DNA of 45,539 nucleotides from a virus. The stretch spans positions 1 through 45,539 of the IMG/VR virus record IMGVR_UViG_3300046820_000915. The stretch is one strand, 5' to 3'. The notes below the pieces were generated by a model, which saw nothing but the letters and a program-made list of their open reading frames with translations, had not been told where the DNA came from and searched no databases. The position numbers and the translations under genes were made by a program. Positions within the stretch are counted from its first letter, which is position 1. Each line of letters opens with the position of its first letter. Below are positions 1,439 through 16,994 of the stretch, piece by piece.

Positions 1439-3808
1439 CTATTTTACAGTGATTTTTGATAAATTATCGTTTTTAATAACTGTAACCACATTGTCTCCCC
1501 AATCTTTTACCAAGTCGTTGTGGGTAATAAAGAAAACAATATCGTACATATCTTTTATTTTATCAAAGAGTGTTTTCAATTTCTCTAGGTTTTCTGGAGC
1601 TACTTTACCCAAAACTTCATCAAATGTAATGAAGTTAGGCATTGGTAATGTAGAGATTTTACCCAATACACCTCTCAACGCTAAACTGGAAGCCGTTTTC
1701 TCAAAACCACTACCAGATTTTAGCATCTTAGATACTTCATCTTTATTGATTAGAAATTGTACATCATTCTTATCATCCATAAATATCTCGATTTCAAAAT
1801 CACAAACATCTTCTAGTAATCTTTGTACTTCTGAATTAATGATTGGTAACACGGAACGCAACACTAGTTTGCTAATACCCTTTTTACCAACTAACTCAAT
1901 ATAAATTTTGAAAATTTTATCTACTTCTTCTTCTTTCTTGATAGTTTCGATTAATTTTGTCTTTGTAGCAATACTAACCCTATTGTTTTTAGTGTCTGTT
2001 TCTACTCTTTCTATTTTTGTGATTGTGTCATCTTTTGCCACCTCGCAAACTGCTAATTTAGTTTTAACGTTGATGATTTGACTCTCAACTCTTTTGTTAA
2101 ACTCAATAGCGTCTAAATTAAGCTTGTATTTCTTTAAATCGTTCTTCTTAGCCACGATATCGTTTCTTAGGGTGCCAAGTTCCACTTCACCTCTATCAAC
2201 GTCTAATTCAAGCTTATTTTTACTATCAACGAGTTTCTTTGTTTCATTTAGAGCAGAAATGTCTGTGGTTAACGTTTCTAATTCTTTGTCAATATTTGAA
2301 ACCTCTTGTCTTATTTTTTCAATTTCCAATTCATGTTTAGCAATGTGTGCTGAATTATCAACATCATCTAGTTTTCTATTACATGATTGGCAGATACCCC
2401 CAGCTATTAATCCGCTAACAACTTTGGCTAATCTAGCCATCTCAGCTTCTTTTAGTGCTTTGTCAGTTGTGTTAGTGTTGAATGATTTGGTCAACGCATG
2501 GTGTTTATCTTCATCAAAATTTATATCACCTATTTTGGTTATCTTAACTTTTAAATCATCGATACTAGTTTTAATACCAACACCCTTTTCGGTAAGTGTT
2601 TCAATCTCACCTTCTAATTTTGATGGGTTTAATTCAGAAATTGTCACATCAATCTTTTCTTTGCTATTGATTAATGCTTCCTTTTCGTCTGTTAGTTCTT
2701 TTATTTCTGTTTTGGTGTTTTCAAGTTTTTCTTTAAGAGATACCTCTAATTCTTCACCTTGTACCACCTTTTCCTCGTGTTCTACAATTTCTTCAGCCAA
2801 TGTAATAACATCGAACTCATTAGATTTTTTCTTTCTAGCAAATTCATTATACATAGCCCTAGCAGCGGCCTCTTTCAACTCTAGAATCTCTAAACCGATA
2901 AGTCTAGTTAAAACTTTACCAGATTCACTAGTAGTCAAACCAATTAAATCATCTAGGTTCTTTTCAGTGGCCAAAACTAACATTTCAAAGTCTTTCTCGC
3001 TTCCGATAGTTTCTTTTAATTTTTTGGTTGTTTGTTTAGCATCTTCTTCGTTCAATTCTTCTTCCTCACCATCTGGTAGGATTCTGTAGTAATTAACTTT
3101 GTTAACAACAGTCCACCCACCATCTTTTTTAGCAGAACGTCTCATTTTTCGTTCAATAATTGTTTCTTCGTTTTCGATTTCAATCATACCACGAACAACC
3201 AACTCATTCTTACCGCTAAAGGTGTTGAAAATTTCTTCATTCTTATCAGTCTTGGTTGTTGTCCCGTGTAATAAGAATTTAATCGCATCAATAGTAAGTG
3301 TAGTTTTACCACCTTGATTTGCTGGGATAGAGTTTACAACTGTTAGCCCTTTTAATTTACTAAAAGGAACATAGTTGTTTTCACCAAAAGATAAAAAGTT
3401 ATCAATCATAACCCACTTTATCGACCAGCTTCTGTGTTGTGCGTGTGTTAAGTCAACATTCAATTCACCATTTACCTTGTCATCTAGGGCTACGATACGG
3501 TTAAAATCAACACTCTTATTGTCTCTGGTGATTAACTCCTTCATAAGGGCTCTTTGGTAGTTAACATCCATGATATTTTCAATACCAGCACCTGTGATTT
3601 CTATCGCATCTCCTTTGGAGTTAAACTTTACTGGTCTATAAATAACGTTGATGTTATTCTTATTAACACCATATTTGCTGGCAAAATAATTTCTTATTTT
3701 GGTTTTACCCTCTTTGCTGTAGTTGTGTGGTTGGTCATCCCAATACACTTTAATCTTAGCGTAAGGTGAAATCAATGTACTGTTTGGTGTATCTGTATTA
3801 TTCGCCAT
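1439..3808 (-). CDS. gp46/SbcC/Rad50-like recombination nuclease ATPase subunit
   Basis: A 789-residue SMC-type ATPase that should pair with the gp47-like nuclease encoded upstream to resect DNA ends for recombination-dependent replication. Visible features, in order: an unusual ~130-residue N-terminal extension; the start of the ATPase head at SIKWVMIDNFLSFGE (129-143), which lines up with the gp46 N-terminus; a degenerate Walker A, PANQGGKTT (162-170); long Glu/Lys-rich coiled coils; a zinc hook CQSC (473-476); a signature-like SGSGFEK (698-704) in place of LSGGE; Walker B ITFDEVL with D730-E731; and the H-loop THN (762-764). T4 gp46 is about 560 residues, so the extra length is mostly the N-terminal domain and coiled coil. 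The start overlaps the preceding gene by 11 bp. The family is certain; the extension's function is unknown. Confidence 0.93.
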   Translation of the reverse strand: MANNTDTPNSTLISPYAKIKVYWDDQPHNYSKEGKTKIRNYFASKYGVNKNNINVIYRPVKFNSKGDAIEITGAGIENIMDVNYQRALMKELITRDNKSVDFNRIVALDDKVNGELNVDLTHAQHRSWSIKWVMIDNFLSFGENNYVPFSKLKGLTVVNSIPANQGGKTTLTIDAIKFLLHGTTTKTDKNEEIFNTFSGKNELVVRGMIEIENEETIIERKMRRSAKKDGGWTVVNKVNYYRILPDGEEEELNEEDAKQTTKKLKETIGSEKDFEMLVLATEKNLDDLIGLTTSESGKVLTRLIGLEILELKEAAARAMYNEFARKKKSNEFDVITLAEEIVEHEEKVVQGEELEVSLKEKLENTKTEIKELTDEKEALINSKEKIDVTISELNPSKLEGEIETLTEKGVGIKTSIDDLKVKITKIGDINFDEDKHHALTKSFNTNTTDKALKEAEMARLAKVVSGLIAGGICQSCNRKLDDVDNSAHIAKHELEIEKIRQEVSNIDKELETLTTDISALNETKKLVDSKNKLELDVDRGEVELGTLRNDIVAKKNDLKKYKLNLDAIEFNKRVESQIINVKTKLAVCEVAKDDTITKIERVETDTKNNRVSIATKTKLIETIKKEEEVDKIFKIYIELVGKKGISKLVLRSVLPIINSEVQRLLEDVCDFEIEIFMDDKNDVQFLINKDEVSKMLKSGSGFEKTASSLALRGVLGKISTLPMPNFITFDEVLGKVAPENLEKLKTLFDKIKDMYDIVFFITHNDLVKDWGDNVVTVIKNDNLSKITVK

Positions 3809-4229
3809 ATATATCCGTTTTCTTTTTGTTTTTTTCTAATTCTAATTCTTTTTCAAGGTTCTTTACCTTATCCATTAATTCTAACATTTCTTTTGTCATG
3901 TTAGATTGGTCCATATCGTGAATTTCTTTCAGTTTTTGAAGTCTTTCAATTTCGTCTGTTAATTTTTTTGTTTCTGAGTCGTCAGTAACGTAAACTTCTT
4001 TTTCTACTGGTACTTCGACAATCTTCTCAACAATCTTCTCAACGGGTACTTCAACAATCTTCTCAACAATTTTTTCTACTATCTTTTCATTTGCTGCTGG
4101 TGTTGCCCCAAACTTTTCAACGGTAAAACCTTGTTTTAAAAGCTTCATTGTAAAATCGTCAATATTGGTGATGCTGTTAACTCTACAGTAATCCCAAATC
4201 TCATCTTTAAGTGTTTTCGATATCTCCAT
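3798..4229 (-). CDS. Small coiled-coil protein with (VEKIVE)-type repeats
   Basis: This 143-residue protein is of unknown function. Residues 1-45 look like a small helical domain (KDEIWDYCRVNS, DDFTMKLLKQGFTV). Next comes a short tandem repeat built from VEKIVEKIVEVPVEK units (about 48-82), then a Glu/Lys-rich helix predicted to be coiled coil to the end. The gene overlaps both neighbours: its start lies inside the 77-residue gene upstream and its end runs 11 bp into the gp46-like start. It is therefore probably translationally coupled within the gp47-gp46 operon. It could be a structural or adaptor factor for that complex, but nothing in the sequence proves this. Confidence 0.78.
   Translation of the reverse strand: MEISKTLKDEIWDYCRVNSITNIDDFTMKLLKQGFTVEKFGATPAANEKIVEKIVEKIVEVPVEKIVEKIVEVPVEKEVYVTDDSETKKLTDEIERLQKLKEIHDMDQSNMTKEMLELMDKVKNLEKELELEKNKKKTDIYGE
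4001..4088. repeat. Short in-frame tandem repeat encoding VEKIVE units
   Basis: Near-identical 12- and 15-bp units (minus strand GTTGAGAAGATT and relatives) recur in tandem. They encode alternating VEK-IVEKIVEVPVEK segments in the small coiled-coil gene. Unit number could vary by slippage or recombination. Confidence 0.7.
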
Positions 4230-5250: not shown

Positions 5251-6033
5251 TTATGCGTTTTTCATTATGTTATAGTAGTGCATGTCGATTAGTTTTTTAG
5301 CTTCATGTTTCAAATACATAATGTGTATCTTCTCAAAACTTTCTTTAATCTTATCCCAATACAATACAACGATTTGGCGACATTTACGCTTAGGAAATTC
5401 TAATTCGTACATGTAAGCATAAACGCTTAATTGTAAGGTATAAATCGACCATTGACATGCTTGTAAATGGTCAAATGGTTTATGTAGTGTTTCAAAACCA
5501 TAAGGATTATAAAAATTGAAGACTCTGTTTGTTTTGTGGTCAAGTACATCAAAGAATACATCATCGATATCGATAATTAAATCGGACATACCAGCCAATT
5601 CATATTGTTCAGCAAAAAGAATCCTTTCTGGCCAAACTGCTTGACCTTCATCAATTTCTAGTGCGTTATAACCATCAATAACTTTTTGTTCAAACTGACC
5701 TTCTGGTGTGTCATCTGGATAGTACCATTTATTGGCCAATAAATAACGTTCAACGATGTCATGGACTTTGGTGCCGTATTCATTGGCTTCATCATTTAAT
5801 AATTGCCAGTAATCGATAATTTGTTGTTGGGTCATGCCGATATACCTTTCTTGTTTAACAGTGTCTAATTGGTTCACAATAGCCGCTGATACTCCTTCCA
5901 CATCAAAGTGTGGTTCGATTGATGAAAGTGTCGTGGTAACTGATTTATACTTCTTACCAGTTTCTCTGTGAATATATTTGTGCTCTATCGGTTCTAAGTA
6001 AACGGGCCCAACCCATAATTTTGCTTTACTCAT
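5251..6033 (-). CDS. PD-(D/E)XK superfamily exonuclease (RecB/Cas4-like fold)
   Basis: A 260-residue protein with the RecB-type nuclease pattern: G87-TKVH91-DIVE95 (motif I), E142...GMSD151 (motif II), D165-H-K167-T (motif III), and a following helix QACQWSIYTLQLSVYAYMYE carrying the motif-IV Gln/Tyr. Members cut DNA using Mg2+ bound by these acidic residues. No helicase domain or Fe-S cysteine cluster is present, so it is a stand-alone nuclease. The ATG at 6033 (MSKAKLWVG) is preferred over a longer in-frame start, because a host-type promoter lies at 6048-6078 and the upstream residues are low-complexity. It begins the operon that continues into gp47 two bases later, so a shared role in end processing or host DNA degradation is plausible. 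Confidence 0.85.
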   Translation of the reverse strand: MSKAKLWVGPVYLEPIEHKYIHRETGKKYKSVTTTLSSIEPHFDVEGVSAAIVNQLDTVKQERYIGMTQQQIIDYWQLLNDEANEYGTKVHDIVERYLLANKWYYPDDTPEGQFEQKVIDGYNALEIDEGQAVWPERILFAEQYELAGMSDLIIDIDDVFFDVLDHKTNRVFNFYNPYGFETLHKPFDHLQACQWSIYTLQLSVYAYMYELEFPKRKCRQIVVLYWDKIKESFEKIHIMYLKHEAKKLIDMHYYNIMKNA

Positions 6034-6047
6034 AATTTCTTTTCTTG

Positions 6048-6078
6048 CAAAGATACGAATTTTTATCTTATATTGCAA
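6048..6078 (-). promoter_or_regulatory. Bacteroidota-type promoter for the exonuclease-gp47-gp46 operon
   Basis: On the minus strand TTGCA... (TTG at 6076-6078) is followed after 20 bp by TATCTTTG (6048-6055), an exact TAnnTTTG match. The exonuclease ATG lies 15 bp downstream. The promoter abuts the upstream region of the divergent plus-strand gene. Confidence 0.75.
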
Positions 6079-6079
6079 G

Positions 6080-6088
6080 TATTTATAT
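6080..6088 (+). promoter_or_regulatory. TATTTATAT, possible late-type promoter motif
   Basis: TATTTATAT lies 12 bp upstream of the plus-strand ATG at 6101. It resembles the TATTTATAA motif found before several virion genes in this window. No TAnnTTTG box was found for this gene. The DNA is very AT-rich, so the call is tentative. Confidence 0.35.
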
Positions 6089-6100
6089 TAAAAGAATATA

Positions 6101-6595
6101 ATGAAAAAGTTTATAAAAAACCTATTAACTGAAGCACTTTCAATACCATCTTTAAGATTACCTAAAGATGTTGGTGTGTCACCTCAAGAAATCGAAGCGA
6201 TAAAGTCTATTGATTGGACAGATATTGGTATTGAAGACCATGGTGGTTCTGGAAACATAGCACATTTAGGTATTACCTTACCATTTGAATCAAATATTAC
6301 CGATGGGATTATTATTGACATTCAAATAATCAAAGATTCTATTTACCAAATTCATATTCACATGGGTAAAGAACTTAGAGGTTTAGGTTTGGGTTATAAA
6401 ATTTACAAAGCCTTGATAAAAGATTTAGGTCACTTATATTCTGGAAAAGGTCGTAGACTTAATCCACATGTTACAATGATATGGGATAAACTAAAAAATG
6501 ACCCAGATTTTGAATGTATTTCAAATCAAAATGGTGATTTATGTATGACCAAAGACAATCCAACTAAAGATGAACTTATTAACTTTATGGGTTAA
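6101..6595 (+). CDS. GNAT-like protein with possible T4-type capsid-targeting leader
   Basis: A 164-residue protein and the only convincing plus-strand gene in the window. Residues 88-110 (IHMGKELRGLGLGYKIYKAL) fit acetyltransferase motif A, R-G-x-G-x-G followed by a helix, where acetyl-CoA pyrophosphate binds. A beta strand precedes it (GIIIDIQII, YQIHIHM). A GNAT fold is therefore likely, although the protein is small and divergent and its substrate is unknown. The N-terminus MKKFIKNLLTEALSI is basic and amphipathic and contains L-T-E|A, fitting the gp21 prohead-protease rule (L/I-x-E|A). It resembles T4 capsid-targeting leaders of the MKTYQEFIAEA type. This suggests packaging in the capsid and delivery into the host with the DNA. 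Its 3' end overlaps the convergent primase gene by 4 bp. Confidence 0.75.
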   Translation: MKKFIKNLLTEALSIPSLRLPKDVGVSPQEIEAIKSIDWTDIGIEDHGGSGNIAHLGITLPFESNITDGIIIDIQIIKDSIYQIHIHMGKELRGLGLGYKIYKALIKDLGHLYSGKGRRLNPHVTMIWDKLKNDPDFECISNQNGDLCMTKDNPTKDELINFMG

Positions 6596-7548
6596 TAAAT
6601 TTCGTTATCGTTTGGTTTAAAAGCACCCATTAATAATTTAACTATACCACCACTACCTAATTTTTCAAATATCTTTGATGGGTCATACCCAGATGGTGGT
6701 TTAACTAGTCTAATTCTATCTCTAAGGTTTCCGAAATTAAGTTCTCGGTATAAAATCTTAGCATCTTCATACGCATCATCATCTAAAACAATTACAATTA
6801 AGCTTTGTGCTTTATCATGTAATTGGTCTAATAAGATATTGGTCATGTATTTACCTAATAAAGGTATTGAGTTAGGTGTTACTATGTGGTCAGTCACACC
6901 TTCTACCAAGTAAATCGTTGAATCAAAATTTATCTTGCACTCGTTGAATATGATTTCTTGTTTTTCAGCGGTAGGGTTGATGTATTTTAATTTGTTGTAT
7001 TCTCTATCAAACCATCTAGCTATAAAGTAATTTAGTTTCCCTTCTGAGTCATAAGATGGAATGATTATCCTATTAAAGAATGGGCCACGATATGTGTAAC
7101 CGATTTCATATTCTTTTATTATATCATCTGTAATCCCACGCTCTCTAAGGTATTTCAAGGCTATATTGGCCTTGTAATCTTTATCAGTACATTCAGATAA
7201 CTTTTTGTAACCCTCTGGTAGTGTTACTATCACTTCCACATGTTCTTTTTCAACAATTAGGTCAGCATCTGGTTTTACTAGTAAATAATCTCGGATATTT
7301 TTTGGTGAAGCGTATTTCTTTAATAACTTCATGACTGGCCCATGCATGTGGTTAGTGTCTTGACACGCCCAACATTTGAAAACACCTCTATTGTAGTTGA
7401 TTTCTAGATTACCTTTGCCATCACCGTCTGGTAGATTCTGTTCAGCAGAACACGCTGGACAATCGAAAGCGATTTGACCAGAGTCTTCATTATGTTTCCT
7501 AGCATCTCCTAAAAAACTTTCAAGTATGTTCACTAATAACATTGCCAT
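6592..7548 (-). CDS. DnaG-type DNA primase
   Basis: A 318-residue primase that should make RNA primers for lagging-strand synthesis with the DnaB-like helicase. The N-terminal zinc ribbon has C30-PA-C33 and C59-WA-C62. A DnaG core follows (GYTYRGPFFNRIIIPSYD, IARWFDREYNKLKYINP). The TOPRIM motifs are E216 (YLVEGVTD) and D256-D-D258 (VLDDDAYEDA), the Mg2+ ligands. It is about half the length of bacterial DnaG (~600) and lacks the C-terminal helicase-binding domain, as is common in phage primases. The first ATG is kept because a promoter -7 box ends 5 bp upstream, which would give a leaderless or nearly leaderless mRNA; a second in-frame ATG is two codons later. Confidence 0.93.
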   Translation of the reverse strand: MAMLLVNILESFLGDARKHNEDSGQIAFDCPACSAEQNLPDGDGKGNLEINYNRGVFKCWACQDTNHMHGPVMKLLKKYASPKNIRDYLLVKPDADLIVEKEHVEVIVTLPEGYKKLSECTDKDYKANIALKYLRERGITDDIIKEYEIGYTYRGPFFNRIIIPSYDSEGKLNYFIARWFDREYNKLKYINPTAEKQEIIFNECKINFDSTIYLVEGVTDHIVTPNSIPLLGKYMTNILLDQLHDKAQSLIVIVLDDDAYEDAKILYRELNFGNLRDRIRLVKPPSGYDPSKIFEKLGSGGIVKLLMGAFKPNDNEIY

Positions 7549-8302: not shown

Positions 8303-9505
8303 TTAAATGGTTATTTTTATACCTAAAGCTAAAAATTCATTAACGTTTTTACTGATTTGTTTGTCTGTCTTAGCGACAGCAATAAGATTACCCATATCGT
8401 CATACAAACCAACTTCACTAATTCTAGGGATATCACCCACATCAAAACTAGGGTTAGTTGTTGAACCGAATTCACCTCTATCAGCAATACATGTGATACT
8501 TTGGTAAACGTTTGTTGAAACGCTATTAAAGCTAACAGTTGTTGCAGTTGAGGCCGATGGTGTAAAGTTATTTACAATCGTTGGGTCGGTAATCACTACA
8601 AACCCCTTATCTAAATAAGCCATACCAACCAATGTATCGGCAGTAACACCTAAATTAGAGTTTGTTTGGAAATTGTATGTTTGTTTTTGATTTAATGAGA
8701 ATGGTTTATCAGTATTATAACCAGTAGCCCAGCTCAATGATAAATCACCACCGTTTGGTGTAAGGATATCATCAGAAACCAAAGCGGAAACGTTTGAACC
8801 GAAAATATTTGTTTGTGGTGCTGTATCAGCAATCAATGTGTCTAAGGTCGTCACTTTTGATGAACCGCCTTGATAAGTAGAATAGATAGTATACGTACCA
8901 GCAGATGTTGGTAATGAAATCCTAACTGTTTTACCATCAATACACTCACCGTAGCTAGTATTTTGTAAAGCAATCACTAATATTTTACTAGTTGATAAAC
9001 CACTAAGAGCGGTATCTGAAAACCCACCATTACTATATGTAGTCCCAGTATAAATACTATCACCGTTTGAATTCAATGGTAAACCAAAAGAATAGTATAA
9101 GTTAACCAACGGGTCAGTGGTGATGTCGTCTCTATTAACAACATTTTGTTTTATGTTTGAACCACTTATCGATGTAAAACCATTTGCTAATACTTCAGAT
9201 AAAATATTAACTGATTGAGAAGCAACTGGTTTAGTTAATAAACCGCTAGTATTAACAATCAACACGCTTTTTAACCCGATAGATTGTGTTGTACTATTAC
9301 TAACAGTACTATTAGGTCCTATGTCACCACTAGTGCTAGGAACTTGGCCTGTTAACAAAGTTAAAGACGTATTGTAATTAGCATCTGAATCACCAAGACT
9401 AAAAGTTTTGATTAATGCATTATTTGTTGAAACAAGCTTTTGTCTACCAATCGGTGTCAATTTAGCTGTTAATGATAGTGTCGTTGCAGAGTTATTATAT
9501 CCCAT
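8303..9505 (-). CDS. Tail-collar-fibre-like virion protein A
   Basis: This 400-residue protein has terminal signatures of phage tail-collar fibre proteins. Near the N-terminus is KLTPIGRQKLVSTN...FSLGDSDANYN (15-44), matching the family's 'K.T..G...L......F..GD' pattern. Near the C-terminus is ISEVGLYDDMGNLIAVAKTDK (about 364-384), matching 'I.E.GlyD..GnLIAV'. The middle is Ser/Thr/Asn-rich and beta-rich. The gene is coupled to its larger paralogue by a TAATG junction and is the last gene of the virion cluster. It is probably a baseplate or fibre component taking part in receptor binding or fibre attachment. Confidence 0.78.
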   Translation of the reverse strand: MGYNNSATTLSLTAKLTPIGRQKLVSTNNALIKTFSLGDSDANYNTSLTLLTGQVPSTSGDIGPNSTVSNSTTQSIGLKSVLIVNTSGLLTKPVASQSVNILSEVLANGFTSISGSNIKQNVVNRDDITTDPLVNLYYSFGLPLNSNGDSIYTGTTYSNGGFSDTALSGLSTSKILVIALQNTSYGECIDGKTVRISLPTSAGTYTIYSTYQGGSSKVTTLDTLIADTAPQTNIFGSNVSALVSDDILTPNGGDLSLSWATGYNTDKPFSLNQKQTYNFQTNSNLGVTADTLVGMAYLDKGFVVITDPTIVNNFTPSASTATTVSFNSVSTNVYQSITCIADRGEFGSTTNPSFDVGDIPRISEVGLYDDMGNLIAVAKTDKQISKNVNEFLALGIKITI

Positions 9506-11646
9506 TAGAAATCCATTGAAAGTTCAAGCATTATTGTATTACCACCAGCCGAAGCCAAAGGTACTGGGTTAGATAATTTACCGATACAAACAAGATTTTT
9601 ATCTGTATCATAAATACCAACTTCAGTTACTTTAATATTAGGTGGGTTTGTTGACAAATCTTTACTTCTGGTAGGGTTTGTAGTTGCGTTGTATTGATTA
9701 CTATTCAAACTAATATCAAAGATTGTTTTGTATATTGTCGCACCAATATATGTCGTTAAATTCCCGTAAAAGAATTTCTCGTCACCAAATTGAAGATTTT
9801 GTGGTTGTGTATTAGCTGGTAGGTTTAGTAAATCAATAATACTAAACGTTGTCGCAGTTGAATCTTTTATTAAGTCAATAACAAACCCAGTTGTTGTTGG
9901 TACTTGAATTTCCAATAATTTAGGGTCAATCGATTCGCCAGCGATACCAGTAATTGCTGGAGATGTGAAATCATAAGTTTTCCATGCTCCTGGGTCTGGA
10001 CGGTCTGTTGGGTCTTGTACGATTTGATAAACCAATTTGAATTTATCAGCATAGAAACCATAACCATCATAACCAGATTCTAATTTACGCATATATGGTA
10101 ATAAATCAGTTTCTAACAATTTAAACGCAACGTCTTTAGCAGATGATGTGTTGTTAGTTATTTTGATGTATTTTTGACATGATAAACTAGATGTCAACCC
10201 TGTTGTAAATGTATTTTCAAGACTATAAGTTAAATACATCGTATCATTGATATCCAAAATTCCAGTAGACGTACCACCAGTAGGTGATTGCAATACAGCT
10301 GATAATTCTGGAAGTGTCCAGTTTCTATTTGATTTGTAAGATGAAGCGGCAACAATTTCATCATCATGTATTACAACAGTTTTTAATTGCGGGTAGATTC
10401 TACCAACAACTTGTGCAGTTGTAGCTGATGAGATAAGTGTAGTATCTTCGAATAATTCAATATATTCTAAATCTGTATTTGGGTGAACCATAGTTGCACC
10501 AGTGGCAATAAATGTCATACCCATAGTCGTACCACTTCCAGTTGTTCCAACTCTTCTGTGATACATTAAATCTGGTAAGAAAAGTTTCAAATATTTACCA
10601 GCAGCGGTATCAGTATAGAAAAACTCACCATATAAGTTAGAAATAGTATTGTTTGTGTAGTGAATGATTGAAATAGATTTATTTACATCATCTGGGTAAC
10701 TATTTCCTGGCCCATTACAATTGAATGATAATGTAGTTGCTGTAGTTTGACAAACGTAATCCATGTAAGGATACTTAGTACCTAAGTATCTATATGACCC
10801 GAATTTAGTGTAGTCTTCGTATAAGTTTGTTGTGGTTAAACCAGTAACCCCAGCAAGATTTTCACACCAAACATTACTCATGTTCCAAACTGGAACGTCA
10901 TGACATGTTACGTTGATATTTGAATCAAAAGATAAAGTCCCAGAATCCCAATAAGCAACTGTGCTTCCTGTTGCGATGCTTTCGTAAACTTCACCGCCTC
11001 TATAAATAAAGACTTGAGATAAAGCAGTTTGTGCTGACAAATTAGGTAGATTTCTATCTAAGTCAACGCTACCAGTGTTAACTGTTTGAACTTTATACCA
11101 AAGATTTGGCATTGCTCTAGTGTTTTCATTATCTATAACGTTACCTAGAGTGTCGTTCGCTAATTTAATCATCAACACATCACCAACAGAAATTGAAGAT
11201 GTAGAAATAGTTAGGTTTGTACCACCAGTTAATATTGAGTTAGATATGTCCGTAAAATAAGGAGTATATGTGTTACCAGTAAGTGTTGTGAATACACCAC
11301 CAGTTTGACTAAAGAACCCTCTTTCAAGTGCTTCATTATTTACAACAGCTTTTACTACGTTTAATACCGAACCATTTACTGGTTGGAATGGGTCAGCCGT
11401 ATTACCTTGTGTAATGAATGATTTGATGTTAGGTTGTCTATCAAACGGTCTAAAAACAGCACTAGTCGCTGAAAGTGTTACGTCATTAGGGTTTGTATCT
11501 ACTATAGCCTCTCTATTGTAGTTTATTTCAGAATCACCAATAGCCCAGAAGCTAAAATTTAACTTCCCTTGTGCTAATTGTTCTCTTCCTTTTTGTGTTA
11601 ACTTGATGCTAACAAACGGACTTGTGCTTTTAATTATGTAACTCAT
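9505..11646 (-). CDS. Tail-collar-fibre-like virion protein B (paralogue of A)
   Basis: A 713-residue protein sharing the frame of the 400-residue gene downstream. The N-terminus is VSIKLTQKGREQLAQGKLNF then WAIGDSEINYN; near the C-terminus is VTEVGIYDTDKNLVCIGKLS. The large central region (about 60-640) is beta-rich, rich in Thr, Asn and Tyr, and unlike the corresponding part of its paralogue. That is the expected pattern when ends are kept for assembly and the exposed middle diversifies. The stop overlaps the next ATG (TAATG), and two TATTTATAA motifs lie upstream of its start. It is likely a baseplate-associated or fibre subunit; the exact position in the virion is not known. Confidence 0.78.
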   Translation of the reverse strand: MSYIIKSTSPFVSIKLTQKGREQLAQGKLNFSFWAIGDSEINYNREAIVDTNPNDVTLSATSAVFRPFDRQPNIKSFITQGNTADPFQPVNGSVLNVVKAVVNNEALERGFFSQTGGVFTTLTGNTYTPYFTDISNSILTGGTNLTISTSSISVGDVLMIKLANDTLGNVIDNENTRAMPNLWYKVQTVNTGSVDLDRNLPNLSAQTALSQVFIYRGGEVYESIATGSTVAYWDSGTLSFDSNINVTCHDVPVWNMSNVWCENLAGVTGLTTTNLYEDYTKFGSYRYLGTKYPYMDYVCQTTATTLSFNCNGPGNSYPDDVNKSISIIHYTNNTISNLYGEFFYTDTAAGKYLKLFLPDLMYHRRVGTTGSGTTMGMTFIATGATMVHPNTDLEYIELFEDTTLISSATTAQVVGRIYPQLKTVVIHDDEIVAASSYKSNRNWTLPELSAVLQSPTGGTSTGILDINDTMYLTYSLENTFTTGLTSSLSCQKYIKITNNTSSAKDVAFKLLETDLLPYMRKLESGYDGYGFYADKFKLVYQIVQDPTDRPDPGAWKTYDFTSPAITGIAGESIDPKLLEIQVPTTTGFVIDLIKDSTATTFSIIDLLNLPANTQPQNLQFGDEKFFYGNLTTYIGATIYKTIFDISLNSNQYNATTNPTRSKDLSTNPPNIKVTEVGIYDTDKNLVCIGKLSNPVPLASAGGNTIMLELSMDF

Positions 11647-13379: not shown

Positions 13380-16300
13380 TTATGGTTTTCTATATACTGT
13401 TCTACCAGTTTTTAACAAATAAAGACCACCAGATGGCATCGTTGTATCAGCATCAGCTTGAGCATCGTTATCATATGGTCCGTATGTTTTAATACTTAAC
13501 CTGTCAACATATGTTGAGTTTGAAACCAATCCAGTTATACTAGCACCCAACACTACAGTATTTGTACCACCAGCTGTTGAACCTTGACCGTGAACAAATG
13601 ATGTTTGTCCAGATGCAATAGAGTTAACACCTCCAGCATGTGATGCTGGACCAGAAGCGGTAGTTTGGCTATTTTGAGCGTGTGAGCTATCACCATATGC
13701 TTTTGTACCAGAACCTTCAGCGTGAGCTGTTGCACCAGAAGCAATTGTACCAGAACCTTCGGCATGTGAACCTTGACCACTAGCTGTTGTTTGGTCATTT
13801 TGAGCATGTGAATATGTACCAGACGCAATAGTTAATATACCTTCAGCGTGTGACCTATTACCGCTAGCTCTTGTTCCATCACCTTCGGCATGCGATACAT
13901 TACCTGTTGCGTATGTTTGAATACCTTCAGCATGTGATGACCATCCAACTGCTGTACCACCAGAAACATTAAATTGTGCTGAACCACCCTCAGCATGCGA
14001 ACTATCACCTTGAGCTAACGATTTGTATCCTTCAGCGTGTGATGTTGCACCAGATGCTATTGTTAAAGTACCTTCAGCGTGTGAATTAGTACCAATTGCT
14101 TTTGTAATTACCCCTTCAGCATGTGAATAAATACCTGTGGCTGATGTACCAGACCCTTCAGCGTGAGAAGCAACGTTAGTTGCGGTTGTGTTATAACCCT
14201 CAGCGTGAGAGTAGTTTCCTACTGCTGTGGTTCCAGAACCTTCAGCATGTGATGCTCTACCAGTTGCTATGGTTAAAATACCTTCAGCATGTGAACCACT
14301 TCCGATAGCTGTACCACCACTTATCCATAGATTTGGAACACCTAAAATAAAATCACCACCTTCGGCATGTGAACCATTTCCTCGTGCTAACGAGTAAATA
14401 CCTTCGGCATGTGAAGCGTATCCAACTGTCATTGAACCACCACCTTCAGCATGTGAATTATCACCACCAGCTATCGAACCACCACCTTCAGCGTGTGATG
14501 TTGAACCACTTGCTTTTGTACCATACCCTTCGGCATGTGATTGGAAACCGCTAGCAAGTGTTTGGGAGCCTTCGGCATGTGCTGCAAATGTTGTTGCTGT
14601 TGTAAACCACCCTTCAGCGTGTGTATACTCATCTAATGCTTTGGTTCCCGCTCCTTCAGCATGTGAGGCACTGCCGCTAGCCAATGTGTCTTGACCTTCA
14701 GCATGAGCTGCAAATGTTGTTGCTGACGTAGCATAGCCTTCAGCGTGAGTTGCTACGTCTTGGGTAATTGTTAAAACACCTTCGGCATGTGAACCATCAC
14801 CAAATGCAGTACCACCAGAGAAAAGTAAACCAGCTTTTGAATTAAAGAACCCACCTTCAGCATGTGAGTATTGACCACTAGCAAGTGTCATTAATCCTTC
14901 AGCATGTGAGGCTTGGCCAAATGCAATCGAGTTGTAACCTTCAACGTGAGCCGCAATACCATTAGCTGTCGTCCCAGAACCTTCAGAGTGTGAGTAAAGA
15001 CCTAACGCCTTTGTTATTAGCCCTTCGGCATGTGATGCTTGACCAGATGCAATAGTGTATTGACCCTCAGCGTGTGCGTAACTGCTACTAGCTAAGGTTG
15101 AAAAACCTTCAGCATGAGCTGCCTGTGTAGTTGCTGATGTAGCTCTACCCTCAGCATGAGCACCGATGTTTGTTGCGTATGTATTAATACCTTCAGCGTG
15201 TGACCCTTCACCAGATGCAGTACCACCGCTTAGTAATAAAGTAGCGGCACCACCTTCAGCATGTGAGTAATCACCTTTAGCTAATGATTTGTATCCTTGA
15301 GAATGGGAACCTTGGCCACTAGCAATCGTAAAAAACCCTTCAGCGTGCGAAGCATCACTAGAAGCTATTGTATTTTGACCTTCGGAGTGTGAACCTCTAC
15401 CACTAGCCAATGTAGTGTTACCTTCGGCTACTGAATTTGCAGCGATTGCACTACTGTTGCTACCACTCAACACAGCGGTTGCTGCGGCAGTACCAGCAGT
15501 CCAAACCATCGCAACAGTTGTTGGTGCGGTACCAGATAAAGTACTGGCAGCTCTAAATTTTACAGTACCGTCAGTTGCTCTAACCAAAACTTGTGTTAAG
15601 GCGTTGTCATTTGATGGTGCATAATTAAGATTCAAATATGGAACGTAAACTGTGTCAGCTGTATTACCTGTAATATTTTGACCACCCAAAACAGCAGAAC
15701 GAGCTCCACCAGCTATAGAGTTAAATGAATGTGCGAATGAAGTGTCTCCAGAAGCTATAGTTTTACCACCACCAGCATGTGATGCAACACCAGATGCTGT
15801 CGTTCCAGAACCTTCAGCGTGTGCAAAAATAGCACTGGCTAATGTGTTTTGACCTTGAGCATGGGTATAAAGTGTTGTTGCTGATGTACCTTGACCCTCG
15901 GCATGTGAGGCATCACCAGAAGCAAGGGTTGCTAATCCTTCAGCATGTGATGCGATACCGCTAGCTGTACCACCTTTTATTGAAGATAACGAATAACCAC
16001 CTTCAGCGTGTGAACCATAATTACTTGCAACCGATTTAAAGCCTTCAGCATGTGAATCTTGACCACTAGCTATTGTTGTATTGCCTTCAGCATGTGATTG
16101 AGCACCGCTAGCTAAAGTAAACCACCCTTCAGAGTGAGCCGCTTGAGTTGTTGCTGATGTTTGTAACCCCTCAGCATGTGATGTTGAACCAGATGCCAAT
16201 GTACCAGCACCTTCAGCGTGTGATGATATACCAGATGCTGTTGTACCAGACCCTTCGGCATGTGATTGAGAACCACTAGCCAATGTTCTATAACCTTCAG

Positions 16301-16994
16301 CATGTGAGTAATTTGTAGTTGCTGATGTGCCGTAACCTTCGGTATGTGAAACACTACCACTTGCTAGTGTTTGATAACCTTCGGCATGAGCACCAGAGTT
16401 TGTTGCTGATGTACCAAAGCCTTCAGCGTGTGAAAAATCACCACTAGCTAATGTTTTAGCACCTTCAGCATGAGCTGCAAAGGTTGTTGCCGATGTTGCA
16501 TTATATCTTGATTTAAAAGTATCGTAATAACCACCCTCGGCATGTGAACCTTCACCAATTGATATATTCTTGATACCTTCAACATGGCTTCCTCTACCTT
16601 GTGCCGTTGTTAAATAACCTTCGGCATGTGAATATAAACCACTAGCAATCGTTTCACGACCCTCAGCGTGAGCGGCCATTTCAGACGCTGTTGTTTTACT
16701 ACCCTCAGCGTGTGAATAATCACCACTAGCTGTTGTGTTATTACCTTCGGCAACAGAGTAATTTCCAGTTGAGTCCAATCCAGAGTCATTCAAAGCTTTT
16801 ATTGATTGATATCCAGTAGAACCAGAAACCCAATAAAGGTCAGCGGTTGAAACATTTAATAAATCAACTATTTGTTGTATGGTTGCTTTATATGAACTAC
16901 CATTTGGGTCTTGTGATTGGTCATTAACCAAAACAACGTGTAATAGGTCGGTTAATGCGATTGACGGTGCTATCGTTCTACTTGTTAATTTCAT
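13380..16994 (-). CDS. Giant YadA-head-like SHAEG-repeat fibre protein
   Basis: This 1204-residue protein is built almost wholly from about 60 degenerate ~14-residue repeats of the type SHAEGxxTxASGxx. This is the pattern of YadA/Hep_Hag head repeats, which form trimeric left-handed beta-rolls in bacterial adhesins. Residues 1-85 form a non-repeat cap (MKLTSRTIAPSIALTDLLHVV...), probably for attachment. A non-repeat segment (about 420-525) splits the array. Every ~120-180 residues a unit is lengthened by a loop ending in 'GGTAxGxxSHAEG'. The C-terminal ~45 residues are non-repeat, ending GLYLLKTGRTVYRKP. There is no signal peptide or outer-membrane anchor, so it is a phage fibre rather than an autotransporter. 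It is likely a host-recognition fibre. Confidence 0.85.
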   Translation of the reverse strand: MKLTSRTIAPSIALTDLLHVVLVNDQSQDPNGSSYKATIQQIVDLLNVSTADLYWVSGSTGYQSIKALNDSGLDSTGNYSVAEGNNTTASGDYSHAEGSKTTASEMAAHAEGRETIASGLYSHAEGYLTTAQGRGSHVEGIKNISIGEGSHAEGGYYDTFKSRYNATSATTFAAHAEGAKTLASGDFSHAEGFGTSATNSGAHAEGYQTLASGSVSHTEGYGTSATTNYSHAEGYRTLASGSQSHAEGSGTTASGISSHAEGAGTLASGSTSHAEGLQTSATTQAAHSEGWFTLASGAQSHAEGNTTIASGQDSHAEGFKSVASNYGSHAEGGYSLSSIKGGTASGIASHAEGLATLASGDASHAEGQGTSATTLYTHAQGQNTLASAIFAHAEGSGTTASGVASHAGGGKTIASGDTSFAHSFNSIAGGARSAVLGGQNITGNTADTVYVPYLNLNYAPSNDNALTQVLVRATDGTVKFRAASTLSGTAPTTVAMVWTAGTAAATAVLSGSNSSAIAANSVAEGNTTLASGRGSHSEGQNTIASSDASHAEGFFTIASGQGSHSQGYKSLAKGDYSHAEGGAATLLLSGGTASGEGSHAEGINTYATNIGAHAEGRATSATTQAAHAEGFSTLASSSYAHAEGQYTIASGQASHAEGLITKALGLYSHSEGSGTTANGIAAHVEGYNSIAFGQASHAEGLMTLASGQYSHAEGGFFNSKAGLLFSGGTAFGDGSHAEGVLTITQDVATHAEGYATSATTFAAHAEGQDTLASGSASHAEGAGTKALDEYTHAEGWFTTATTFAAHAEGSQTLASGFQSHAEGYGTKASGSTSHAEGGGSIAGGDNSHAEGGGSMTVGYASHAEGIYSLARGNGSHAEGGDFILGVPNLWISGGTAIGSGSHAEGILTIATGRASHAEGSGTTAVGNYSHAEGYNTTATNVASHAEGSGTSATGIYSHAEGVITKAIGTNSHAEGTLTIASGATSHAEGYKSLAQGDSSHAEGGSAQFNVSGGTAVGWSSHAEGIQTYATGNVSHAEGDGTRASGNRSHAEGILTIASGTYSHAQNDQTTASGQGSHAEGSGTIASGATAHAEGSGTKAYGDSSHAQNSQTTASGPASHAGGVNSIASGQTSFVHGQGSTAGGTNTVVLGASITGLVSNSTYVDRLSIKTYGPYDNDAQADADTTMPSGGLYLLKTGRTVYRKP
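13600..16750. repeat. Array of ~42-bp coding repeats (SHAEG units)
   Basis: Tandem degenerate ~42-bp units run on the minus strand, each including a TCACATGCxGAAGG-like core. They are interrupted at about 15430-15730 by unique sequence. Units are shortened or lengthened in places (loop units near 13965, 14335, 14830, 15235, 15980 and 16515). Codon-level divergence between units shows old, diversified duplication, with clear potential for recombination between copies. Confidence 0.85.

Follow-up and report, generated by a model that had tools for sequence, protein, structure and literature searches.

Variable internal proteins that carry a leader tag and are injected into the host are already known for the T-even phages (PMC12373910, PMC9026906). 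In T4, the internal proteins IPI, IPII and IPIII are described as having an N-terminal propeptide of about 10 residues, cut by the prohead protease gp21 after L/I-x-E, and as having unrelated mature bodies behind this one leader at variable loci (PMC9026906, PMC9958956). Ip1-3 are reported to have just the leader in common and to block different GmrSD enzymes; according to the same source, the function of head-injected phage proteins is mostly not known, and in T-even phages they are recognised by their signal sequence (PMC12373910). For IPIII, the first ten residues are described as sufficient for packaging, with positions 4 and 7 mattering for targeting and positions 8 and 10 for processing (PMC9026906). 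The gene studied here lies at positions 6101 to 6595 on the plus strand of a viral record of 45,539 nucleotides (IMG/VR record IMGVR_UViG_3300046820_000915), called the window throughout, and encodes a protein of 164 amino acids with a predicted GNAT fold and a short leader. An earlier note on this DNA had proposed that the protein is packaged, processed and injected in the manner of the T4 internal proteins. Comparison with other viral contigs supports that interpretation through a recurring leader, a protease in relatives and a late-type promoter motif, and we consider it quite likely that the product is a capsid-packaged, protease-trimmed and injected effector of the T4 internal-protein type.

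As with the T4 internal proteins, the candidate leader is about ten residues long and ends in L/I-x-E, and the same leader is found on unrelated proteins at a variable locus. The leader class itself is different, being MKxxIKKLLRE here and MKTYQEFIAE in T4; moreover, the cargo that can be named is mostly enzymes, and the phages are uncultured, probably of Bacteroidota, and known from sequence alone. In the T4 record, IPII and IPIII begin MKTYQEFIAEA and gp24 begins MAKINELLRES, the latter being closely like new leaders such as MKTFIKKLLRES. Although gp24 is described as losing an N-terminal propeptide (PMC5694885), it is a capsid vertex protein and not cargo. T4 Alt is a head-delivered enzyme with an N-terminal propeptide cut by gp21 (PMC5694885) and in this respect resembles the delivery proposed for the GNAT. 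Alt is an ADP-ribosyltransferase (ART) whereas the window protein is a GNAT, and leader-bearing ART-PolyVal proteins do occur in relatives. Packaging in the head has been proposed for ARTs and Nudix proteins (PMC9503650). GNATs occur in phage polyvalent proteins thought to be injected, and one of these GNATs is described as typically sharing its polypeptide with a neighbouring ART (Iyer et al. 2017, PMC5512222). In contrast to those GNATs, the window protein is a single domain behind a short leader, where polyvalent proteins have two or more effector domains. The ART-GNAT arrangement resembles, as far as the description of the GNATs in that source allows a comparison, a 372-amino-acid protein found at 865-1983 of L142/L143, in which an ART-PolyVal domain is fused in front of a GNAT homologous to the one in the window. 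This fusion shows V-K-E|S, by eye, at the position aligning with the cleavage site of the solo GNAT leader.

The window protein begins with MKKFIKNLLTEA, of which the first 11 residues (MKKFIKNLLTE; 11 codons, 6101 to 6133, plus strand) form a capsid-targeting-like leader with a predicted cut after Glu11 and before Ala12. The start of the gene is firm, since the frame is open for 167 codons and reaches just three codons upstream of the ATG. The earlier note had read L-T-E|A at the end of the leader as a cleavage site; LLTE|A indeed fits the gp21 rule, which is kept in all nine distinct sequences of the family alignment (the window protein included; relatives from viral contigs). Position 9 (P3) is only L or I, position 11 (P1) is E and position 12 (P1′) is A in 9/9 of these, and position 10 (P2) varies between T, H, Y, R and N. 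For three relatives, identity to the window protein is higher in the leader than in the body (67 vs 33% for L098, 67 vs 48% for L059 and 58 vs 39% for L008). Judged from these alignments, the leader is fixed in its pattern and not as a complete string. Of 26 GNAT relatives, 20 have a strict L/I-x-E near the start when read by eye, with TTG or GTG starts assumed for six. A leader matrix built from other contigs gives the window leader a score of 18.2, while a score of 6 is reached by none of the 196 internal methionine contexts of the window and, at the same threshold, by none of those in three related phages (0/1441 in G063, 0/784 in G001 and 0/673 in immuto), so the window leader is more than a chance resemblance.

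The leader type is not confined to GNATs. Viral contigs were scanned at the DNA level for the pattern M-K-x-[FLI]-I-[KR]-K-L-L-R-E, which gave 51 stretches; with 8 from an earlier, differently relaxed pattern, 48 distinct open reading frames (ORFs) were obtained, 61 matches having been collapsed by their first 60 residues and some being cut by contig ends. Three have a body shorter than 40 amino acids and were left out of the family count; the other 45, with a body of at least 40 amino acids, make up 28 sequence families (blastp, E 1e-3), of which 19 have a single member. One ORF, L059, is a new member of the GNAT family that was recovered through the leader alone. When the codons of the pattern were scrambled as a control, 0 stretches matched. 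When residue 11 was left unconstrained, 58 stretches were found, corresponding to 48 distinct ORFs of which one is cut before that residue, and Glu occupies it in 44 of the 47 readable cases. The leader as a mere basic AT-rich start was rejected on the strength of the scrambled control and the result with residue 11 free. The leader Glu is encoded by GAA in 36 cases and GAG in 12, and Leu by several codons; therefore amino acids, not codons, are kept. A search of other genes for the same leader had been suggested in the earlier note, and the type does recur in relatives: the L004 contig, whose GNAT is 69% identical, has a second leader protein, a Nudix. With a matrix of the 48 leaders, a score of at least 6 is reached by 3/641 genes in G063, 4/195 in G001 and 1/33 in the window.

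Thirty leader-bearing proteins (24 from leader-scan contigs, 6 from G001 and G004) were scanned against Pfam, and 10 matched above the cut-off while 20 did not. The families found are ART-PolyVal (4), NUDIX (2), and ArdcN, SprT-like, Pterin_4a and LRR (1 each); the ArdcN protein also has a sub-cut-off match to MPTase-PolyVal. Other N-terminal motifs were seen alongside this leader class. A recurring motif, LSEQF[KR]RMQ-x-LAGIITES, is present at L033 25061-25456 and at L035 11675-12139 and 25626-26867 (phage immuto). It resembles the C-terminal end of a scaffold-like protein (RWQKLAGIIK) and perhaps represents another class of signal for core targeting. G001 (L010, L012, L013, L019) has scattered proteins beginning MKKRL[ND]EGFFG-x-IQEE, several of them with leucine-rich repeats; some have ART-PolyVal leader genes close by, as well as a gene whose HEFAH motif is metalloprotease-like.

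The gene is situated in a slot of which the content differs between relatives. In the window, this slot is flanked by an exonuclease-like gene (phrog_298; 5251 to 6033, minus strand) and by a DnaG-type primase gene (PHROGs; 6592 to 7548, minus strand), with a 4-base overlap between the latter and the end of the GNAT gene. The neighbourhood of a related primase was surveyed at 17 loci. This GNAT, whose leader there is MKKFIKDKIREA or MSQ[IL]VKKLLREA, is found at five of them, and another five (one truncated by the end of its contig) have a second GNAT of a different kind that starts with MKEFIKEQVRTLLFEE or MKDFIKTRLLE[GS]. Proteins of the type M[NE]IKSRLRQL[IL][FK]ES are present in two loci and MKDLKKIMEK proteins in two others; two slots are empty, and one locus has another ORF near the contig end. 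The exonuclease gene is next after the slot in most loci, as in the window, and another gene takes that place in L098 and L099. In phage immuto, the primase gene directly adjoins the exonuclease gene. All four kinds of slot protein have L/I-x-E with the Glu at residue 9-15 (by eye); as a background, three related phages have L/I-x-E at residues 8-18 in 19-28% of their genes. Since its contents are swapped or absent among relatives, the slot parallels the variable loci of internal proteins in T-even phages. A slot unique to the GNAT is ruled out, as other proteins occupy it in relatives. The second slot GNAT has its own L/I-x-E leader (L095 3958-4347; L107, L109 and L110 3954-4331); L095 reaches the Acetyltransf_1 cut-off, L107 stays below it, and the two are 56% identical.

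Two promoter motifs separate the genes of these phages. TATTTAT is found at most 45 nucleotides upstream of 28 of the 48 leader ORFs (mean 2.7 after shuffling), and TAnnTTTG, which we take to be a host-type promoter element of the Bacteroidota type, precedes one of the 48. At most 40 nucleotides upstream, TATTTAT is present for 47/547 genes in G063, 38/188 in G001 and 28/215 in immuto; in G063 the genes behind it include terminase, protease, baseplate and tail genes (by eye). Among 432 genes of G063, 43 have TATTTAT, 72 have TAnnTTTG and none has both, against a chance expectation of about 7; both motifs occur at 3/180 genes in G001. Within the window, TATTTAT stands before two tail-type genes (9505-11646 and 13380-16994) as well as the GNAT gene, and TAnnTTTG before the primase, the exonuclease and two other genes. 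The putative late-type motif of the GNAT gene is TATTTATAT (6080 to 6088, plus strand), and the host-type element of the neighbouring exonuclease gene is TATCTTTG (6048 to 6055, minus strand). That a motif other than a host-type promoter precedes the GNAT gene had been pointed out in the earlier note, and the contrast proves correct given how the two motifs are distributed in the window, where both flanking replication genes have the host-type element. The motif may point to late synthesis of the GNAT together with the head proteins. In 15 of the 28 motif-bearing leader ORFs, TATTTAT ends exactly 4 nucleotides before the ATG; late messages may therefore be leaderless or nearly so.

A prohead protease that could cut such a leader was searched for as Peptidase_S77 (PF03420). 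It is present on 3/8 plus 24/40 leader contigs, and on 12/18 (hand count) of those of at least 60 kb. Elsewhere it was found on 3/17 contigs picked by primase similarity, on 7/18 further GNAT contigs, on 1 of the first 4 GNAT contigs and on 1/7 contigs where no Glu could be read at residue 11; the one positive contig among these seven is cut ahead of that residue. Phage immuto has S77; for two huge-phage records in which distant relatives of the GNAT occur, all S77 matches stay below the cut-off. The earlier note had made its proposal depend on a gp21-like protease in the rest of the genome. None was found in the window, itself a fragment; in larger relatives, S77 and a leader-bearing GNAT share one contig: G001 (184.5 kb), G063 (368.5 kb) and G064 (274 kb). 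The primase of G063 and G064 is 78% identical to that of the window; these two contigs are not independent, since the DNA of L098 and L099 is identical over the 6969 bases compared. In an alignment of S77 from G063, G001 and immuto with T4 gp21, the His, Ser and Asp columns are invariant, which matches the expectation for a working protease and suggests one. The gene order in G063 is terminase, portal, protease, scaffold and major capsid protein, directly followed by the leader gene MKHTIKKLLRES, the names in this head cluster being given by eye except for the protease and the capsid protein. LLTE|S of this major capsid protein aligns with FLTE|A of T4 gp23 in one column, with an invariant Glu65; in the same alignment G001 has LVE|S after a gap and immuto has VSE|A. 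In G015, G021, G083, G088, G090 and G091, the S77 matches lie within much longer open frames (628-822 amino acids), in two separated pieces in G015 and G021, which suggests fused or intein-split prohead proteases.

The protein had been called GNAT-like in the earlier note, and its predicted fold does match GNAT acyltransferases, with modest scores and no name from the sequence libraries. An AlphaFold model from six family sequences (m476aa5343b98) has a predicted local distance difference test score (pLDDT) of 83 and a predicted template modelling score (pTM) of 0.81; an earlier model from 4 sequences had a pLDDT of 69. Residues 2-11 form a short low-confidence helix, followed by a low-confidence linker and then by the confident fold, with the GNAT-fold domain at about residues 28-163 (6182 to 6589, plus strand). 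Structure comparison of the model with Foldseek and VIA-align returned nearly exclusively acetyl- or acyltransferases of the GNAT kind, the best Z-scores being 8.3 (YhhK with coenzyme A, CoA) and 8.1 (RimL). The acetyl-CoA-binding enzyme ICL2 is also among the top Foldseek rows, and its matched C-terminal part is presumably GNAT-like. The acetyl-CoA loop of GNATs has the motif R/Q-x-x-G-x-G/A. R-G-L-G-L-G of the window protein (residues 93-98; 6377 to 6394, plus strand) fits this motif and is a candidate acetyl-CoA loop; its first residue is R or Q in 8/9 distinct sequences and H in L003. The product is thus predicted, from the model, to be a GNAT-fold protein of a single domain. Nothing was found for it in PHROGs at E up to 0.1, and searching PDB sequences with a profile yielded 0 matches. 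A scan of bacterial and archaeal genomes with two short peptide patterns gave 38 matches, none of them a tblastn relative, so no cellular origin was traced for this GNAT.

From what was computed here, namely the ORF, the predicted fold, the conservation and modularity of the leader, the slot, the promoter contrast and the protease in relatives, we infer how the GNAT may be packaged, cleaved and injected, and how it may act. A GNAT-fold enzyme bearing an 11-residue capsid-targeting propeptide would be made late in infection alongside the head proteins, and the leader helix would dock it to the prohead core. The gp21-type prohead protease would then cleave after Glu11 (LLTE|A), and the trimmed GNAT would remain in the head with the DNA and enter the next host with it. 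There it would probably acetylate a host target, perhaps one involved in defence; that the target lies in defence or RNA synthesis is a guess by analogy with the companion cargo. The GNAT would be one cargo of a swappable set; in relatives, this leader class is borne by ADP-ribosyltransferases, Nudix hydrolases, an ArdC-type anti-restriction protein, a SprT-like metallopeptidase and numerous proteins without an assigned function.

Several observations weigh against packaging, trimming and injection of this protein. S77 was not found in the 45.5-kb window nor on the contigs of L002-L004, all of them fragments, nor on 6/18 leader contigs of at least 60 kb, among them a 205-kb contig and the 71-kb contig of the leader-bearing GNAT L059. 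Its presence on leader contigs could reflect contig size or kinship alone, as the counts come without a base rate from random contigs. The leader counts are not independent either, as some leader contigs are near-copies. Within the GNAT family, the leader is less identical to that of the window than the body in five of eight comparisons (67 vs 69-74% for L002-L004, 50 vs 64-66% for L101 and L105). A strict L/I-x-E near the start was not seen, by eye, in 6/26 GNAT relatives (L151, L152, L154, L156, L157 and L158), nor in the huge-phage relative in LR756504, at its start as read. In the cultured Flavobacterium phage immuto, a gp21-type protease is present, but none of the 225 genes reaches the matrix threshold for this leader class. 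Leader and domain model overlap in the Pterin_4a protein, whose Pfam match begins at residue 5. As to the enzyme itself, no Pfam match was obtained at E up to 1, and the structural scores are modest, with 2 of 1000 chains at a Z-score of at least 8 and Foldseek template modelling scores (TM-scores) under about 0.5. Virion proteomics for these phages was not found in the open-licence PMC literature.

The alternatives differ in the step at which they depart from the proposed route. The N-terminus could be a genuine capsid-targeting and cleavage signal of a protein that acts in the head, for instance in core assembly, DNA condensation or head-protein modification, and that is not injected. T4 IPIII is described as affecting head assembly as well (PMC9026906), and the injection step of the GNAT is reached by inference. 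However, the gene beside the primase is absent or replaced in relatives, so the GNAT is not a needed head part at that site, and some of the companion cargo consists of host-conflict domains of the kind described as injected (PMC5512222, PMC9503650). A role confined to the head is therefore unlikely in our judgement. A step further, the leader might not target anything and be a general amphipathic or translation-friendly N-terminus of AT-rich phages, with L/I-x-E arising by coincidence or shared descent. The A/T-rich leader codons, often close behind the promoter motif (4 nucleotides in 15/28), would suit such an explanation, as would a spread of leaders by recombination, in which case counts are not independent, and the background frequency of L/I-x-E near gene starts quoted above. 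It is difficult to reconcile with the preservation of amino acids rather than codons, with the Glu that returns in 44/47 ORFs when residue 11 is unconstrained, with the fixation of the protease-relevant positions in the GNAT family while P2 varies, and with leader bodies that span 28 families; its probability is accordingly rated as low, below that of a role in the head.

Least probable, and very unlikely, is an ordinary early host-takeover or metabolic acetyltransferase that is expressed in the infected cell and does not enter the virion. The position of the gene among replication genes, not head genes, would agree with this. Yet the gene stands alone on the other strand of the window, carries the leader, and has the late-type motif without a host-type element, in contrast to both flanking replication genes. 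Injection of a trimmed GNAT from the capsid remains the reading that we favour.

We also lean, with less assurance than for the GNAT itself, towards a wider proposal. A lineage of the T4 superfamily, probably living on Bacteroidota, would load swappable injected enzymes by means of one removable label of 11 residues, with dedicated exchange slots, of which the primase-side slot would be one; the GNAT would be an injected acetyltransferase of that arsenal, and hundreds of unannotated phage proteins could be identified as injected effectors by their first twelve residues alone. If the leader is indeed a capsid address in uncultured T4-like phages, it provides a rule for singling out injected effectors by sequence, even those without a recognisable domain, its predictions can be tested peptide by peptide, and acetylation would join ADP-ribosylation and restriction inhibition among the activities of injected cargo. 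A paper on this leader class was not found in the open-licence PMC literature, which does not imply that it is unpublished; as far as the searches tell, the leader class, its enzymatic cargo and the slot are apparently new with respect to that literature. The host is probably a member of the Bacteroidota, because of the Bacteroidota-type promoters and the recombinase of the window, which at E 1e-5 matches only four phage records, of one Flavobacterium phage kind, at 35% identity.

The window as a whole contains replication and structural genes and is probably a fragment of a larger phage genome. Genes were called by a simple longest-ORF method, and 1/33 lies on the plus strand, namely 6101-6595, which agrees with the statement in the earlier note that it is the sole plus-strand gene; the remaining plus-strand ORFs are antisense to longer ORFs. 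Replication genes include the primase, the exonuclease and a single-strand binding protein (PHROGs) and the recombinase (similarity to annotated records), and a baseplate wedge subunit is recognised among the structural genes (PHROGs). The MRE11-like, Rad50-like and helicase-like genes and the tail genes of the window were named by eye, as were terminase, portal and scaffold in the relatives, no library scan being involved. At 13380-16994, the window encodes a protein of 1204 amino acids with 50 HAEG repeats, which we take to resemble the head repeats of trimeric adhesins; this protein is probably a tail fibre. A small protein encoded at 3798-4229, between the MRE11- and Rad50-like genes, has the short charged repeat KIVEKIVEVPVEK.
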